This document shows positions 5,502 to 25,857 of a stretch of DNA of 25,857 bases, one piece after another (within the stretch, counting starts at the first letter, position 1; the number at the start of each line of letters is the position of its first letter). Location of the stretch: the IMG/VR virus record IMGVR_UViG_3300044742_000117, positions 1 to 25,857 of that record; one strand, 5' to 3'. The notes below the pieces were generated by a model that saw nothing but the letters and a program-made list of their open reading frames with translations, was not told where the DNA came from and ran no database searches. Both the position numbers and the translations under genes were made by a program. The DNA comes from a virus.

Positions 5502-6506
5502 TTACCACGCCGTCGCGCCGAAGGCGTCCTTGATCAGATAGCCTGCACTTGCAAACGTGACCTTGAGATCATACTTCCATGACGAACGAACGAGATCGGA
5601 CTTGCGTCCTTCCTCACGCCAACGATCCGTAGGCCGCGTTGTACCGTCAGGATAAACCTGCGCGAACGTCTTACCGAACGACAGATCATCCTGCTGGAGA
5701 TTCGGGCTGACGTAGCCGAGCCACACGTCCTTGCCCCATGCGCTGACAAGCGACTCAGTTGCTTCCTGAATATCGTTGTCGTTGTACTTGTCGTCACCGA
5801 TTAGCACCATCTCGCCATCGAATCCGGTGAGTGCGCGGAACGCGCCATCATCGGTGAGTGCGAAGTTGGTGAACCGAGCGACCATGTCGGGATGTCCCGC
5901 AAGCCACGGGATACCCTGCGAACCGAGCGCCATCACGTTCGGCGTCACACCAGTGAGAGACTGAATCTTCATGATTGCAGCCCTCACGATGTCGATCGGG
6001 TTAGAGGTTGCACCGGCGTAGTTGTCCCACTGATCCGCTGCAAGCAGCGTGATCGTGTTGCCTACGGGATACGTTGCAGTGTTGCGAAGTAGTGCAGCAA
6101 CAGCGATCTCCTGCTCAAGCAAGAGAGAGTTGTTGATCAGCGCCGTAGCATCGACTTCAGGGTTGATCTGCAAGCTGCCACCGAACACGGCATTTGCAAG
6201 TCCACCCTGTGAGTTCAACTGCTGACGCTCTTCATCTGCAACTGCGGCCTGGAGCGAGTGCTCAACTGTCTTGAACGTATCCTCGCTCCAACGCCCACCG
6301 CGAACCTCGTTCGCAACGGCTCCAGGCTCACGCCTGGAATAGAAACGAACACGCCGCTCGCGGCCATAGACGCGATAGCGACCCGACTGCGTATTGACCG
6401 GAATCTGCGGCATGAGCCGAAGACCGACAAAGGTAGGCGGGTTGTACCCGACCGAGAAATCCGTGAGGATCGGATCGGAATACAGTGTACCGGGATCGTA
6501 CATCAT
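5502..6506 (-). CDS. Major capsid protein, HK97 fold
   Basis: A 334-residue protein that should form the icosahedral shell. It has the usual length for an HK97-fold capsid protein and the expected elements: an N-arm leading to SGRYRVYGRERRVRFYSRREPGA, a spine-helix region rich in E and L (SLLLEQEIAVAALLRN), a P-domain/A-domain sequence with VTPNVMALGSQGIPWLAGHPDMVARF, and a C-terminal strand region ending YLIKDAFGATAW. It starts with a doubled ATG (6506/6503), with GGTGA about 9-10 nt upstream. It follows decoration and protease genes in the canonical order. There is no N-terminal delta domain here, because the scaffold appears to be fused to the protease. Confidence 0.9.
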   Translation of the reverse strand: MMYDPGTLYSDPILTDFSVGYNPPTFVGLRLMPQIPVNTQSGRYRVYGRERRVRFYSRREPGAVANEVRGGRWSEDTFKTVEHSLQAAVADEERQQLNSQGGLANAVFGGSLQINPEVDATALINNSLLLEQEIAVAALLRNTATYPVGNTITLLAADQWDNYAGATSNPIDIVRAAIMKIQSLTGVTPNVMALGSQGIPWLAGHPDMVARFTNFALTDDGAFRALTGFDGEMVLIGDDKYNDNDIQEATESLVSAWGKDVWLGYVSPNLQQDDLSFGKTFAQVYPDGTTRPTDRWREEGRKSDLVRSSWKYDLKVTFASAGYLIKDAFGATAW

Positions 6507-8603: not shown

Positions 8604-10088
8604 CTACCCTTCGGCGTTCGTAGGGTCTGCGGTGTCGGGCGCATTGAGCCGCCCCGGATTCTGTGCAGGAGAATTGCCCGGATCAAACTTTCCCGGTGTG
8701 AGTGGTGCATCGATGATCTTACGTGCCCACTCCTCCAACTCTGGGGTGTAGTTGATGATCTGATTCTTCATCAAGTTTGCTACCGCAGAGGCCCACTGCT
8801 GCAAGTCCTTCGTCTCACCGATGTTACGTACACGCAACTTCGGAAACTTGTCGGTCTTGAAGTTGTAACCAACAAGGTAAGGGACGCAGTATAGGTTGAT
8901 TGAGTCACAGATTTGATTGCCGATATAGCGGAGAGACTTGTTGAACATGTCTTGGTGAGAACCTGACGTGGCCCTACCTCCACCTGTTCCCTCCAGTCCG
9001 AGTAGCAAGAACTGCGTCATCGTGTTGAGCATGATCGTTCCATTGTGGTGTTCGATTGAACGCATCACGTCAACCGGCTGACCCGGCAACTCCAAGAAAC
9101 TCAACCCCCACTTGGGCGGGAGCACCGCGCCACCATGCTCGTTCGTTCGGATATTGCGAACCAGCTCTAGGGCAGCGGTCTTGTCCGAATCCTTATATCC
9201 CGGCGGGAGAACGATGACCGGGAAGCCCATGCCATGACGTTCCTTCTGGATACCATCAATGTTGTAGAGATTGCTCTTGAAGTACCACGGCCGATACGAC
9301 GTACGTAGCAGCGACTTCCCTTCAAGGTTTCCACCTTTACGGTTGTGCGTGAAGATGATCAACTTCTCGATGTCTATGTCGACATCCTTCGGCTTGCCGT
9401 CACCTTGCACTGCCGACTGTGTAATCGATATCGGCCCGCCGTAGTCGTCGTACTTGATCTCCTTGATGGTCGGAGTCGGACGCGCAGAGAGCTTGCGTAG
9501 CATCGTATAGACCCTACGATTTGCGCCGGTCTTGCGCGGAGACCACTCGCGCTCTTCCCATACCTTCTCAATCGCGGAGTAGCCGAACTCATACATACGG
9601 AGGATGTCTTCCAGAACGTTGAGGAACGGACTGTTCGAACCCTCCAGCAAGTTGTACTGTACAAACTCGCCAATGACTAGAGCTTCTTCGCTGTCGTCGA
9701 AAGGCTCGACAAAGTAGTCGGCACCCATAACGGGCATCTTTGCAGCGCGAAGTGATACGTCGACAGCGGCATCGCCATTCGCCATCTCGTCATACAAGTT
9801 GAACGCGGTCTGACGATTCGCGAGAGCAGGAACTACATCGCGAACGAGTCCGCCACGACTCGATCCAAGTTCGACACCAACGGCGGTACCGGGATCGATT
9901 GTCCCACCCGCCGCATAGCTCGTGCCAGTTACACGCCGACGTGGATCGGTAGTCGTTGCCTGTCTCCCCATGAGGCGAGACACGAACGATTGCTTGTTCT
10001 CTGCAACGCGCACAAACCCCACAACTGCGGGGTCGGCTAGCGCAATCTCAAGAAGTTCTGAGTCTGTCAGTTCTCTAGTATCGGCCAT
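8604..10088 (-). CDS. Portal protein (DUF935-like)
   Basis: A 494-residue protein forming the dodecameric DNA entry ring. Diagnostic stretches include EMANGDAAVDVSLRAAKMPVMGADYFVEP, a stem-like segment FEYGYSAIEKVWE-type (here MYEFGYSAIEKVWEERE), LIIFTHNRKGGNLEGKSLLR, and FKSNLYNIDGIQKERHGMGFPVIVLPPGY, which matches the DUF935/Mu gp29-like portal family better than SPP1-type portals. The start overlaps the terminase by 14 nt. The C-terminus is Pro/Asn-rich (GKFDPGNSPAQNPGRLN). Confidence 0.92.
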   Translation of the reverse strand: MADTRELTDSELLEIALADPAVVGFVRVAENKQSFVSRLMGRQATTTDPRRRVTGTSYAAGGTIDPGTAVGVELGSSRGGLVRDVVPALANRQTAFNLYDEMANGDAAVDVSLRAAKMPVMGADYFVEPFDDSEEALVIGEFVQYNLLEGSNSPFLNVLEDILRMYEFGYSAIEKVWEEREWSPRKTGANRRVYTMLRKLSARPTPTIKEIKYDDYGGPISITQSAVQGDGKPKDVDIDIEKLIIFTHNRKGGNLEGKSLLRTSYRPWYFKSNLYNIDGIQKERHGMGFPVIVLPPGYKDSDKTAALELVRNIRTNEHGGAVLPPKWGLSFLELPGQPVDVMRSIEHHNGTIMLNTMTQFLLLGLEGTGGGRATSGSHQDMFNKSLRYIGNQICDSINLYCVPYLVGYNFKTDKFPKLRVRNIGETKDLQQWASAVANLMKNQIINYTPELEEWARKIIDAPLTPGKFDPGNSPAQNPGRLNAPDTADPTNAEG

Positions 10089-22812: not shown

Positions 22813-22960
22813 ACGTACCTCCTCTCGCGTACGAGGATAGAGAGATATCAGGGTTTGTGTGAATTGTCACATGTAACAAACGTCACGTGTATTGTAATCG
22901 GAATAGGCAACATACACCACTGCCATGCATTGTAAGAGTTACCGTCGTGAGTGTTTGAAA
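22813..22960 (-). promoter_or_regulatory. Probable promoter region of the late operon
   Basis: These 148 noncoding nt precede the first gene of the long minus-strand operon. The minus strand shows two TACAAT boxes (about 22930 and 22890) but no clear matching -35, and a near-palindrome TGTCACATGTAACA at 22865-22878. No copy of the four-copy 18-bp box is found here, so late transcription may use a different signal. The promoter itself is inferred from position. Confidence 0.5.
22865..22878. promoter_or_regulatory. Near-palindrome TGTCACATGTAACA, candidate operator
   Basis: Centred on ACATGT, with TGT and ACA ends and one mismatched pair. It lies 53 nt upstream of the first late gene, where an activator or repressor could act. 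Confidence 0.35.
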
Positions 22961-23003
22961 GGGCGACCCCTACAGTCCCTTTCGAGACTGTAGGGATTCG
23001 CCC
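22961..23003 (-). terminator. Rho-independent-like terminator of the 23016 gene
   Basis: Two nested perfect stems: GGGCGA (22961-22966) with TCGCCC (22998-23003), and CCCTACAGTC (22968-22977) with GACTGTAGGG (22986-22995), around an 8-nt loop. That gives 16 pairs with a small internal loop. On the minus strand the stem is followed by TTTC, a weak U-tract. It lies 13 nt past the 23016 stop and would separate that gene from the late operon. Confidence 0.7.
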
Positions 23004-23015
23004 GTGTGGATCGTG

Positions 23016-23753
23016 CTAGCTGGACGTGCGAGCCGTGTCCTGCGCGGCCGCTCGACCCCGCTCGCTCATGAGTGACGCCACCCGCTCACGTGCGGCCGCG
23101 TCGCGCTCGACCGTGGGGCTTGACGCGCTAGCCCTGCGTCCCTTGCGCTTGCGAGCCGTAGCCGTCGTCACGAGGGGGACGCGCGAGCCGTCAGGCATGA
23201 CGCGATAGCATGTCCAGTCAACGGGAGCGGCATTGCCGTCCTCATCAGTCATAGTGATTGCACTGCGCTTCGAACCCGTCCAGCGCGGCATGCCCCGAAC
23301 CTCGCGGGCGTTGACGACGGTACCACTGGCATAGCCTTCGTCGCCCGTGCCTCGACCCTCGCGGTGTGGTTCAACTTGCATCGTTGATTCAATACCGTGC
23401 CAGTAGCTGTCCCGAGCCGTATGCCATTCGTCCAGTGCGGCATAGCGGTCAAGGGGTCGCGGGTAGTGGGTGAGTGTCCGGGTGGCCACGAGCGGTTCGC
23501 TAGGAAGCGCGAGCCGTGCGAGACGAGTAGTCATGTCGACTCGTGCGCGCGCGGCGCTTAGAACGCCTCTCCGCGATGCACGAGCGGCATTGTGCTTCTT
23601 GTGCAAGTGAGTCATGCGGCGGATGCGGTGCGGTGTCGCGGGAGTGTCGCCCGAGTAGCCTCCTGCACCACGCTTGGCGACCGGCTCACCGATGCCGCTC
23701 GGCGCAACGCAATCAGCGAAGTGACCCTCACCCATTGAACGCAGTACCGTCAT
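23016..23753 (-). CDS. Hypothetical GC-rich basic protein
   Basis: 245 residues, ATG preceded by AAAGGGG with 6 nt spacing. Composition is Arg/Ala-rich, with a basic N-terminal half (HKKHNAARASRRGVLSAARARVD) and a C-terminal stretch TARKRKGRRASASSP. A middle section shows DEDGNAAPVDWTCYRVMPDGSRVPLVT. I recognise no family. The DNA is clearly more GC-rich than neighbours and uses G/C-ending codons heavily, so it may be a recent acquisition. It has its own promoter box (23810-23827) and terminator, so it is a separate unit transcribed away from the plus-strand operon. Could be a regulator or DNA-binding protein because of the charge, but there is no motif to prove it. Confidence 0.65.
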   Translation of the reverse strand: MTVLRSMGEGHFADCVAPSGIGEPVAKRGAGGYSGDTPATPHRIRRMTHLHKKHNAARASRRGVLSAARARVDMTTRLARLALPSEPLVATRTLTHYPRPLDRYAALDEWHTARDSYWHGIESTMQVEPHREGRGTGDEGYASGTVVNAREVRGMPRWTGSKRSAITMTDEDGNAAPVDWTCYRVMPDGSRVPLVTTATARKRKGRRASASSPTVERDAAARERVASLMSERGRAAAQDTARTSS

Positions 23754-23809: not shown

Positions 23810-23827
23810 ATGATACTACGCTGTCAA
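23810..23827 (-). promoter_or_regulatory. 18-bp box, copy A (TTGACAGCGTAGTATCAT)
   Basis: It points towards the GC-rich gene, with 56 nt between the box and its ATG. Upstream flank TCGACCCAC resembles the flank of copy D (TCGACCAC). A TTGAAT lies 17 nt after the TTGACA and could be a conventional -10, but this is not seen at the other copies. Confidence 0.7.
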
Positions 23828-23871
23828 GTGGGTCGACGCAAGTCTCGCGCAATCCCTGCATGCATGCCGAT

Positions 23872-23889
23872 TTGACGACGTCGTACCAT
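23872..23889 (+). promoter_or_regulatory. 18-bp box, copy B (TTGACGACGTCGTACCAT)
   Basis: It keeps all 11 invariant positions of the four-copy consensus but has A6G and G7A. It lies 44 nt before the ATG of the 29-codon gene. Confidence 0.58.
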
Positions 23890-23933
23890 TCCAAGTGTTA
23901 GTTGAGAGCGAAGCTATCGAAGGGAGGCGCCGA

Positions 23934-24023
23934 ATGTACGAACGTTGTCTTGTGTGGCTCGGGTACAACGTCTCAAATCGTCGTATCCGTCGTAATCTCC
24001 GGATTATCCGGAACTGGTACTAG
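23934..24023 (+). CDS. Small basic protein, 29 residues
   Basis: ATG preceded by AGGGAGG with 6 nt spacing, one of the better ribosome binding sites in the early region. The peptide starts MYERCLVWLGYNV and continues with a very basic SNRRIRRNLRIIRNWY end (7 Arg in total). It lies between box B and box C, so it would be the first product of a short transcript. It could be a small regulatory or membrane/DNA-contacting peptide, or a leader peptide. No family known. Evidence is only start signal, composition and context. Confidence 0.5.
   Translation: MYERCLVWLGYNVSNRRIRRNLRIIRNWY
23942..23971. repeat. Inverted repeat ACGTTGT...ACAACGT
   Basis: Seven-base arms at 23942-23948 and 23965-23971 with a 16-nt spacer, inside the 29-codon gene. 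The arm shares ACAACG with the dyad at 24058-24078 and with sites at 24558 and 24566. Confidence 0.4.
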
Positions 24024-24050
24024 AGTATCGCGGTATCGATTTCGCGATAT

Positions 24051-24068
24051 TTGACAGCGTTGTATAAT
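24051..24068 (+). promoter_or_regulatory. 18-bp box, copy C (TTGACAGCGTTGTATAAT)
   Basis: It ends in a perfect TATAAT, 25 nt before the ATG of the 80-codon gene. The TTGACA is perfect too, but only 6 nt separate them, far less than the 16-18 nt that sigma-70 promoters need. TATAAT may act as a lone -10 box. Confidence 0.68.
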
Positions 24069-24078
24069 ATGTACAACG
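24058..24078. promoter_or_regulatory. Dyad CGTTGTA-N7-TACAACG, candidate operator
   Basis: Seven-base perfect arms overlap the TATAAT of box C, so a dimeric protein bound here would block or control the promoter. The other boxes lack this dyad, so regulation would be specific to the 80-codon gene. Confidence 0.5.
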
Positions 24079-24093
24079 AGGCAAGGAGAGACC

Positions 24094-24336
24094 ATGCGGG
24101 GGAACCCCGTCATGAAAGCCAAGCGCGTGACAGGCCCAACACCGAACACAGTGTTGGTGAATCGGGTGCGCCTGGAGCGTTGCTGCGTCAAAGGTTGCGA
24201 CAAACCCGTCGCGATTGTCAAGGTGATCTCGACTCACAAGGTCAAGCGAGCTTGTATCACGCACGCACAATCGTTGTCTGGTAAGCAGACACGAAAGTAC
24301 GGAACTGTAGGTTTTAGGCCCGCCTGGTTCGTGTAA
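24094..24336 (+). CDS. Small basic protein with Cys/His cluster
   Basis: 80 residues, ATG with AAGGAG 5-7 nt upstream. Residues 30-57 contain C30-C31-x3-C35 and C54-x2-H57 (RCCVKGCDKPVAIV, ACITHA), which could form a zinc ribbon or knuckle. The rest is basic with KAKRV and KQTRKYG. Such small basic zinc proteins in phages often bind nucleic acid, but I know no exact family. It is the first sizeable gene after box C and stands apart from the next gene by 460 nt. A hairpin spans its stop codon (24331-24350). A second in-frame ATG at 24112 lacks a good ribosome binding site. Confidence 0.7.
   Translation: MRGNPVMKAKRVTGPTPNTVLVNRVRLERCCVKGCDKPVAIVKVISTHKVKRACITHAQSLSGKQTRKYGTVGFRPAWFV
24097..24109 (+). 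other. Hairpin immediately after the start codon
   Basis: CGGGG-GAA-CCCCG directly follows the ATG at 24094. A 5-bp all-GC stem at the ribosome footprint could lower or regulate translation. Confidence 0.4.
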
Positions 24337-24350
24337 GGCTCACCTTACAC
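24331..24350 (+). terminator. Hairpin spanning the stop codon of the 80-codon gene
   Basis: GTGTAAGG-CTCA-CCTTACAC, an 8-bp perfect stem with a 4-nt loop that contains the TAA stop. No U-tract follows, so efficient intrinsic termination is doubtful. It may protect the RNA 3' end or aid Rho-type termination. Confidence 0.5.
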
Positions 24351-24405
24351 GACTCAACCCCCCGAGTTATGCTGCTATACCTAACGCATGCAGCGAATAC
24401 TACAG

Positions 24406-24465
24406 GGTATAAGTGGGTGCTTTAGAGTGATCCCAAATGTTAGAACACTCGCACCCACTAATACC
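24406..24465. repeat. Nested inverted repeat, 15-bp arms
   Basis: GGTATaAGTGGGTGC (24406-24420) pairs with GCACCCACTaATACC (24451-24465), one A/A mismatch. An inner stem GAGTG (24425-24429)/CACTC (24446-24450) stacks on it after a 4-nt bulge. It could be a small RNA hairpin or a binding site. Confidence 0.75.
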
Positions 24466-24467
24466 TA

Positions 24468-24498
24468 ATAGTATATATGACATAGTTATGTATACTAT
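24468..24498. repeat. AT-rich inverted repeat ATAGTATA...TATACTAT
   Basis: Perfect 8-bp arms with a 15-nt spacer, directly after the GC-rich repeat. AT-rich composition would suit DNA unwinding or promoter function. Confidence 0.6.
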
Positions 24499-24510
24499 AG
24501 AAAGTGCCTG

Positions 24511-24520
24511 TGACATGTCA
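24511..24520. promoter_or_regulatory. Perfect palindrome TGACATGTCA
   Basis: Ten-base perfect dyad 74 nt before box D. Its ACATGT core matches that of the near-palindrome at 22865-22878 (TGTCACATGTAACA), so one protein might bind both. Tentative. Confidence 0.4.
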
Positions 24521-24593
24521 GCAAATTTTACAATTTTCGTGAAAACGGACTTATTTTCAACGTCGACAACGTGTTAGCCCGTTTATCGACCAC

Positions 24594-24611
24594 TTGACAG
24601 GGCAGTACAAT
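24594..24611 (+). promoter_or_regulatory. 18-bp box, copy D (TTGACAGGGCAGTACAAT)
   Basis: Copy D precedes the rightward operon, with 185 nt of leader before the first ATG. A 6-bp hairpin TACCCC-TACG-GGGGTA (24611-24626) starts on the last base of the box. Confidence 0.68.
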
Positions 24612-24633
24612 ACCCCTACGGGGGTAATGTAGT

Positions 24634-24757
24634 GCTCACGGGGTCGCGGCATTCGATGTCTTACGACGGTCGTGCAGTTAGCACAACTTTGATCCTACAG
24701 ACCCCCGATGTGTCCAAAACTTCGGGTGCGACCAAACTTGCAGGGATCACCGTGAGC
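24634..24757 (+). ncRNA. Putative structured leader RNA with possible pseudoknot
   Basis: P1 pairs GCTCACGG (24634-24641) with CCGTGAGC (24750-24757). P2, contiguous on the 5' side, pairs GGTCGC (24642-24647) with GCGACC (24728-24733). Inside lie hairpins GTGC-agtta-GCAC (24672-24684) and CCCGA...TCGGG (24704-24708/24722-24726). TGATCC (24690-24695) can pair with GGATCA (24744-24749) to form a pseudoknot next to P1. The RNA ends 39 nt before the ATG of the 96-residue gene. I cannot match it to a named riboswitch. Individual short helices can arise by chance; the adjacency of P1, P2 and pseudoknot is the argument. Confidence 0.45.
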
Positions 24758-24796
24758 CGAATTTGAACTTCGAAAACCGGAAAGGGGGTGAATCAC

Positions 24797-25087
24797 ATGA
24801 AGATCGTACTCAATCCGAGCTATGCAACCACGAACACTGTCCGGTTCGATGAGGAGTCAACTCAGGCTCCCGTAGATCCGACAGACTTCCTGGCCGCAAC
24901 TCCGAGGGCATCCGGTGTCTTGGGGGATCCGTTTACTCAGTACCTCAACGCCGATCAGCTCGCCGCACTAGGATGGAAGCCGTCCAAGATCGGTGAGATG
25001 TACGTGGCCGAGGGTGGCCGTGGCAAGACGTACAATCGCCGCGACGTGGAGGGGCCTAGCATTACGCTAGATATCAAGGTGGTGTAG
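24797..25087 (+). CDS. Conserved small phage protein, 96 residues
   Basis: Starts at ATG 24797. A GTG at 24788 is in frame but forms part of the Shine-Dalgarno AAAGGGGGTG, which is 6-8 nt from the ATG, so I reject it as start. The protein opens MKIVLNPSYATTNTVRFDEE and ends SITLDIKVV, with GDPFTQYLNADQLAALGWKPSKIGEMYVAEGG in between. The 'MKI.L......NTVRf.e' start and beta-strand end resemble small hypothetical proteins common in actinophages. No function known. It is the first gene after box D and the structured leader. Confidence 0.78.
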   Translation: MKIVLNPSYATTNTVRFDEESTQAPVDPTDFLAATPRASGVLGDPFTQYLNADQLAALGWKPSKIGEMYVAEGGRGKTYNRRDVEGPSITLDIKVV

Positions 25088-25280: not shown

Positions 25281-25857
25281 GTGAAGGTATGGACTACCCT
25301 CACGCCTGACGAGCTTCGCGATATCGCCGCTAGCGTCGGAGTCAAGATTCATTCTGACTACGCCGGAAGCGGTATTTGCAAGAATGGGCGAGCGTGGAAC
25401 TTTCGGCTCGCACTGAATTCGGATATCCCGAAGCGCGATTCAGGCTACAAGTACCAGAGAGTGTCTGCATCGACTTACCAGAATAATCGGAGAGTCGCCG
25501 CTGTATGCTGGCATGGACACCGTGACTTCATGCGGGCGGTCTTTGCACGAGATGCGGATGCGAGGATCAAGAGCGCGATCAGCGACTACAGGGGTAGCGA
25601 GGCTTTCGAGCTCGACTTCCCTGCGACTGCATACCGTAACGTGGGGAGCCTAATGTACCCCATGTTCATGAAGGATACGTGTACTTGCTCGTGGGGTGAG
25701 TACGAAGATGTCGATGCGAGTATCGGAGGAACTACCTCAGTTCGTATGCAGCAGAGCATGATCACTGCGTGTCCACACGTGATCTTCACGCCCGATCACT
25801 ACAGGGCAGACGGATCGTGCAAGTGTGATGATCCGCACGATGCCAACATGGGTGAGT
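25281..25857 (+). CDS. Conserved phage hypothetical protein, truncated by window edge
   Basis: GTG start with GGGAGGA 6-7 nt upstream. 192 codons are visible and open to the right edge. It contains YKYQRVSASTYQNNRRVAAVCWHGHRDFMRAVFARDADARIKSAISDYRG, and the CWHGHRDF block (76-83) with Y-RN-VGSLMYP further on is a pattern I associate with uncharacterised proteins of actinophages. Later Cys pairs (CTC at 134-136, CKC at 180-182) suggest possible zinc binding. Function unknown. A 10-codon frame (25252-25284) ends by overlapping this GTG and could couple its translation to the upstream gene. The C-terminus is missing. Confidence 0.8.
   Translation, partial: MKVWTTLTPDELRDIAASVGVKIHSDYAGSGICKNGRAWNFRLALNSDIPKRDSGYKYQRVSASTYQNNRRVAAVCWHGHRDFMRAVFARDADARIKSAISDYRGSEAFELDFPATAYRNVGSLMYPMFMKDTCTCSWGEYEDVDASIGGTTSVRMQQSMITACPHVIFTPDHYRADGSCKCDDPHDANMGE

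Follow-up and report, generated by a model that had tools for sequence, protein, structure and literature searches.

A putative class of phage promoters with a short, fixed spacer in a clade of uncultured phages

The window, i.e. the whole stretch of DNA analyzed here, is a 25,857-base fragment of the genome of an uncultured phage. Four 18-mers within it, in which a TTGACA-like hexamer is followed by a 6-nt gap and a -10-like hexamer, are very probably members of a genuine phage-specific promoter class, as judged from comparative sequence data. The layout recurs in five related uncultured phages and therefore probably represents a special way for these phages to control RNA polymerase. A phage-specific promoter had already been proposed in a preliminary description of the window, and this proposal is supported by the recurrence of the same geometry at orthologous genes and by the conservation of an extended -10 and of an A-G at the putative start site.

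Short-spacer elements of the window

The structural genes of the window run leftward from ~22.8 kb, while a second gene set runs rightward from ~23.9 kb. The four 18-mers, all intergenic, sit between these two groups. Their previously described coordinates and strands match the sequence letter for letter, and the 11 invariant positions (1-5, 9, 12-14, 17 and 18) and the identical 6-nt gap were confirmed in all four copies. The pattern TTGAC-N6-GTAYMAT has four exact matches in the window compared with 0.02 expected (100 dinucleotide shuffles), a count that is partly circular because the pattern was derived from these very copies; no one-mismatch copies were found elsewhere in the window. Independent support is provided by copies in an overlapping contig and by the spacing spectrum of five other phages (see below). 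None of the four copies has a TANNNT 16-18 nt from the TTGACA, and a simple scan of the region revealed no canonical rightward promoter.

It had been stated that each copy heads a different gene. This holds for three of them. The leftward element TTGACA-gcgtag-TATCAT (positions 23810-23827, minus strand; exact match) has its -10 at 23815-23810 and a putative start at ~23803, from which it would read left, through a 50-nt leader with a Shine-Dalgarno (SD) sequence and ATG, into a 245-aa open reading frame (ORF; 23016-23753, minus strand). Homologous stretches of this ORF are present in five relatives, and no family match was obtained for it. The element TTGACA-gcgttg-TATAAT (24051-24068, plus strand; exact match) has a putative start A at 24075, 19 nt before the ATG at 24094 of an 80-aa ORF (24094-24336, plus strand) that is conserved in phages G3, G6, G7 and G4. 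For the element TTGACA-gggcag-TACAAT (24594-24611, plus strand; exact match) the putative start A is at 24618. Its transcript would carry a 179-nt untranslated leader (24618-24796, plus strand), in which no significant fold was detected (z -0.5), ahead of a 96-aa ORF beginning with the ATG at 24797 (24797-25087, plus strand). The N-terminus and position of the latter resemble those of short genes that follow short-spacer promoters in G7, G3 and G6, an equivalence that is one of position and N-terminus only, as the window gene gives no BLAST match to the others. The fourth element, TTGACG-acgtcg-TACCAT (23872-23889, plus strand; exact match to the degenerate pattern), is divergent from the 23827 element and is the weakest copy, having TTGACG and no A at the putative start. 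Here the statement fails, since it is followed only by a possible 29-aa ORF (23934-24023, plus strand; SD GGGAGG), a weak gene predicted from sequence alone.

Two inverted repeats were noted in this part of the window. The first (24397-24474), located between two of the promoters, has 24-nt arms (83% matching) separated by a 30-nt gap and is followed by an AT-rich stretch; a different inverted repeat occupies the matching position in G7. It may be a terminator or an origin element. The second (22960-23003; GGGCGA..CCCTACAGTC..GACTGTAGGG..TCGCCC), recognized by eye in the gap that separates the 245-aa ORF from the structural operon, is possibly a terminator.

Distribution of the elements among related phages

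Contig IMGVR_UViG_3300034150_000019 overlaps the window over 13 kb with 99.9% identity and extends it to the right by 13.3 kb. It contains a fifth exact copy, TTGACAGCGTTGTACAAT (L012 11436, minus strand), directly upstream of a gene encoding a DUF932 protein. Another copy differs from the pattern by one mismatch (L012 8598, minus strand). Two copies with a 7-nt spacer were also distinguished, TTGACA-gatggtg-TATAAT (L012 11739, minus strand) and TTGACA-taggtgc-TACAAT (L012 7356, minus strand); the putative start of the latter is 21 nt upstream of the ATG of a 331-aa gene.

Relatives were gathered as contigs carrying a DUF932 homologue, and the clade considered here comprises the window phage and G3, G4, G6, G7 and G8, whose records are fragmentary or do not state how complete they are; the ORFs of the relatives were called mechanically. 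G3, G6, G7 and G8 have DNA polymerase, portal, capsid, tail and many early proteins in common, mostly with 40-80% identity, and the same genes are present in the window phage and G4 as far as their fragments reach. The annotated relatives nearest to the DNA polymerase, the portal protein and the protein encoded at 5502-6506 of the window share less than 30% identity with them. Among cultured phages, the DUF932 protein is best matched in Rhodococcus phages (~45%), so an actinobacterial host is likely. No prophage of this kind was found in the bacterial genomes of the collection. The portal protein (window 8604-10088), whose nearest cultured relatives are less than 30% identical, matches the Mu portal family and the portal barrel of Thermus phage P23-45.

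The exact motif of the window was not found in the five relatives first collected, and the class became visible only in a search based on spacing. Occurrences of TTGACA-Nk-TANNNT were counted for k = 0 to 40 and pooled over the six phages. At k=7 there are 27 sites against a background of 2.7 (Poisson 2e-18). These are not 27 independent events, because the six phages are related, although the spacer sequences of orthologous sites have diverged; several of the sites fall within reading frames. The canonical spacing k=17 accounts for 24 sites, a number that overstates the true canonical promoters because some of these sites lie within conserved coding sequence. Seven sites were found at k=6, five of them from the window phage, which also has two at N7. 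The remaining spacings have a mean of 2.7 sites (range 0-8), and spacings 5, 8 and 9 are at background in the six phages. Among all hexamers located 7 nt before TANNNT, TTGACA ranks first (27 occurrences versus 12 for the runner-up). By these counts, the 6-nt spacer is a version peculiar to the window phage and the norm of the clade is 7 nt, exactly 10 bp below the canonical 17. Sites of contig G016 were left out of the independent count, being letter-for-letter identical to those of G3, and two N6 matches in G019 were dropped, since they lie within repeats resembling coding sequence.

Outside the clade, a control set of 73 partly redundant loci (1.0 Mb, 830 TTGACA) yielded the k=7 spacing once. 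Of six cultured phages that encode a DUF932 homologue, five lack the class, and out-of-clade contigs carrying the gene at 25281 of the window have mostly N17 sites, with one N6 match (L169). The spacing spectrum, the out-of-clade loci and the cultured phages together indicate that the class is real and, as far as sampled, confined to this clade.

It could still be argued that the elements reflect chance or a few repeated bases inherited from a common ancestor: the first pattern was taken from the copies themselves, and exact 18-mers in unrelated contigs resemble coincidences. We consider this extremely improbable given the spacing spectrum and the outcome of a search that disregards TTGACA (described below), and because the spacers of orthologous sites have different sequences in phages that mostly share 40-80% protein identity. 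Exact 18-mer matches in AT-rich or otherwise unrelated viral contigs appear incidental, and the only other exact matches come from the near-identical contig. Nothing meaningful emerged when the intergenic region was compared with known phages in a search for distant DNA similarity, Rfam gave no match, and such a promoter class is not described in the open-access literature searched.

Promoter anatomy

The logo of the 27 N7 sites reads CACTTGACA-N4-TGS-TAYAMT-N6-A(+1)G, or in a fuller form CAC-TTGACA-N4-TGS-TAYAMT-GNNNNT-A(+1)G. C at -1 is found in 21 of the 27 sites, TG at -15/-14 in 17 and G alone in 22. Seven bases past the -10 there is an A in 20/27 sites, followed by G (+1/+2) in 16/27, and this A-G looks like the start point of transcription. 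Counted from it, the -35 consensus TTGACA occupies positions -25 to -20 and is thus ten bases nearer to the start than usual. An extended -10, i.e. TGN directly before TANNNT, is present in 17/27 N7 sites. The 6-nt copies of the window lack it in its strict form and have instead a G directly preceding TA. Both spacer versions keep a conserved G at spacer position 6 counted from TTGACA, and differ by one extra base before TA.

When the sequences were searched with a pattern blind to TTGACA (TGNTANANT-N5-YAG), seven sites were obtained, and TTGACA is present at N7 in six of them and at N17 in one. In 15/27 N7 sites an SD sequence and a start codon lie within 80 nt of the putative start, mostly behind a leader of 14-31 nt. 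Orthologous promoters keep the layout with changed spacer sequences. Thus, the promoter of the gene at 24094 of the window has N6 in the window phage and N7 in G7 and G3, directly upstream of the gene; that of the DUF932 gene has N6 in the window phage and N7 in G3 and G4; and that of the 331-aa gene has N7 in both the window phage and G7. The 24594 promoter has positional equivalents in G7, G3 and G6.

The same phages also carry promoters of the host sigma-A type, which have the same TTGACA and TANNNT and, in 18/24 N17 sites, TG at -15/-14. These differ from the clade class in spacer length (17 versus 7 or 6 nt), in the bases before TTGACA (GGC versus CAC) and in lacking a conserved AG at the start. 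The presence of N17 promoters raises the question of whether the short-spacer sites are ordinary sigma-70 promoters, in which TTGACA acts as a standard -35 for a -10 that was overlooked 16-18 nt away, the near hexamer being incidental. The preliminary description held that conventional 17-nt spacing would speak against its reading; a second -10-like hexamer does occur at N17 in 3/27 sites (G3 55029, G4 10322 and G7 374), but in 24/27 there is no TANNNT at this distance. Moreover, the N7 hexamer itself is tenfold enriched, and at G8 2297 and G6 55503 a start ~10 nt later would be placed 4-5 nt before the start codon, inside the ribosome site or cutting it off, which argues against this explanation. 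We therefore regard it as highly unlikely.

Possible modes of recognition

Textbook sigma-70 promoters tolerate about 15-20 bp between the hexamers. The assertion that host sigma-70 cannot use a 6-nt spacer was nevertheless too strong, because an extended -10 can function without a -35. On balance, we favor the view that these are phage-specific promoters which the host RNA polymerase uses and whose TTGACA is recognized, as a promoter element, within the polymerase complex. The -10 (TAYMAT), together with the TG of the 7-nt members, would be bound as an extended -10 by the main host holoenzyme, and transcription would begin at the A seven bases past the -10. TTGACA at -25 to -20 would itself be a genuine promoter element, recognized together with the -10 in one complex, as suggested by the fixed distance between them (7 nt, or 6 in the window phage). 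This constancy argues for a promoter element rather than an operator. Since the neighboring genes are non-structural, the short-spacer promoters may be active early or in the middle of infection.

As to the reader of TTGACA, the sub-mechanism that we prefer is one in which an early phage protein would shift sigma region 4 off the polymerase flap and thereby allow it to recognize its usual -35 consensus one helical turn (10 bp) closer. In a variant of it, a phage protein would hold sigma compact, altering its reach and leaving its sequence preference unchanged. Reading by displaced host sigma region 4 is a tentative proposal, conceivable yet doubtful on present sequence data. Gp39 of phage P23-45 displaces sigma region 4 by ~45 Å and favors extended -10 promoters (PMC7403470). 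In mycobacterial polymerase with sigma B the distance between regions 2 and 4 is ~83 Å in the open and ~50 Å in the closed form (PMC7403470). The difference of 33 Å corresponds to about 10 bp of DNA, an agreement that is suggestive only: a coincidence worth testing, not evidence. Gp39-favored P23-45 promoters resemble those of the clade in that their extended -10 (TGN) is not accompanied by a -35 at the usual position; however, they need no upstream box, whereas the clade promoters conserve TTGACA 7 nt upstream.

Alternatively, a phage DNA-binding activator might take over from region 4. In phage T4 this is the role of MotA, whose box, centered at -30, replaces the -35 (PMC6755090). T4 middle promoters (MotA/AsiA) are alike in having a normal -10, which in the clade too would be read by the host holoenzyme, in having a box at a fixed, nearer position that would stand in for the -35, and in being confined to phage genes. 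Whereas the MotA box is centered at -30 and is not TTGACA, the clade promoters have the -35 consensus itself, located at -25 to -20. The likeness to T4 is one of layout and lies in the enrichment of the clade box at a fixed 7 nt over all other spacings.

A search for sigma-70 region 2 gave no match in the six records, some of which are incomplete. Pfam and PHROG scans covered 37 mostly non-structural G7 genes and 31 genes of the window phage. These scans identified replication and nuclease proteins and no sigma factor, RNA polymerase, integrase or repressor. No recognized polymerase-binding protein was found among the scanned genes, and no relatives of MotA or AsiA, proteins of a kind that diverge fast, among the early genes of G7 and the window phage; family searches likewise recognized no gp39 relative. 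One conserved protein (L012 8646-8173) has a predicted winged helix with a C-terminal helical extension. Its best structural neighbors are MarR-type regulators and, lower, replication initiators, with weak E-values, and it is a candidate only for the reading factor. Short-spacer elements occur within the frame of this gene (L012 8173-8646) in the window phage, G3, G6, G7 and G8. The position of the element relative to the reading frame differs between the window phage and G3, which hints at internal promoters.

The clade restriction of the class, together with its own flank CAC and start motif AG, unlike those of N17 sites, could also point to an alternative sigma factor or RNA polymerase of the phages' own, so divergent that it escapes detection, which would read the whole -25/-10 unit. 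This seems quite improbable, as the -10 and TG equal the ordinary host consensus, no sigma-70 region 2 was matched in the six records, and no polymerase appears among the Pfam/PHROG matches of the early genes.

A repressor or autoregulatory operator was considered as well. In that case host polymerase would use the extended -10 alone, and TTGACA, with or without dyads, would be a phage repressor site. The inverted repeat CGTTGTA/TACAACG (24058-24078, plus strand) covers the -10 of the 24051 copy and is reached in 0/200 shuffles. A similar dyad is borne by the fifth copy (L012 11436, minus strand), and in G3 and G4 the promoters of the DUF932 gene carry dyads that are individually weak (p 0.09 and 0.2) and differ in their arm sequences. 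The conserved winged-helix gene with internal short-spacer elements in several phages fits an operator too, and TTGACA is part of the cluster A repressor site. However, the distance to the -10, which would be free to vary in the case of an operator, is strictly N7, with only background counts at N5, N8 and N9; the TTGACA box has no dyad symmetry of its own, and the scanned genes gave no match to a repressor or integrase family. We consider the operator unlikely. The idea of a dyad operator for the whole class was rejected, as the dyad is significant on few copies only.

Cluster A repressor sites are asymmetric 13-mers (PMC9283540). Such stoperators (L5 type) have CTTGACA in common with the elements and can overlap promoters, but they are repressor sites spread across temperate phage genomes, whereas the clade box is tied to a -10 at a fixed distance. 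The likeness to stoperators suggested earlier is not supported, because the sites are not genome-wide (the four window copies are clustered within 0.8 kb rather than scattered), no integrase or repressor family was found in the scanned genes and only CTTGACA is common to both.

That a family of phages repeatedly has the exact -35 consensus at a distance of 7 bp from an extended -10 suggests one of two things: either the span between the two DNA-reading parts of sigma can be reset, or one of these parts is mimicked by a phage protein. Either outcome would yield a marker for new polymerase-remodelling phage proteins. Promoter finders with a fixed spacer range would overlook whole promoter classes in uncultured phages.

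Features of a different kind accompany some of the promoters in G7. Four perfect TTATCCACA boxes (DnaA-box consensus), all in one orientation, are present within 1.5 kb (G7 47723-49266; L122:7723-9266), and three of them are located 5-6 nt upstream of the TTGACA of a short-spacer promoter. A link between DnaA boxes and the class was rejected, since TTATCCACA adjoins TTGACA in these three G7 promoters and not generally. The region is possibly a replication origin. G7 also has, between two short-spacer promoters, ~310 nt without an obvious long ORF (G7 48929-49272; L122:8929-9272), which show a very strong predicted RNA fold (z -6.3) compared with the window counterpart at 24618-24796 (z -0.5).
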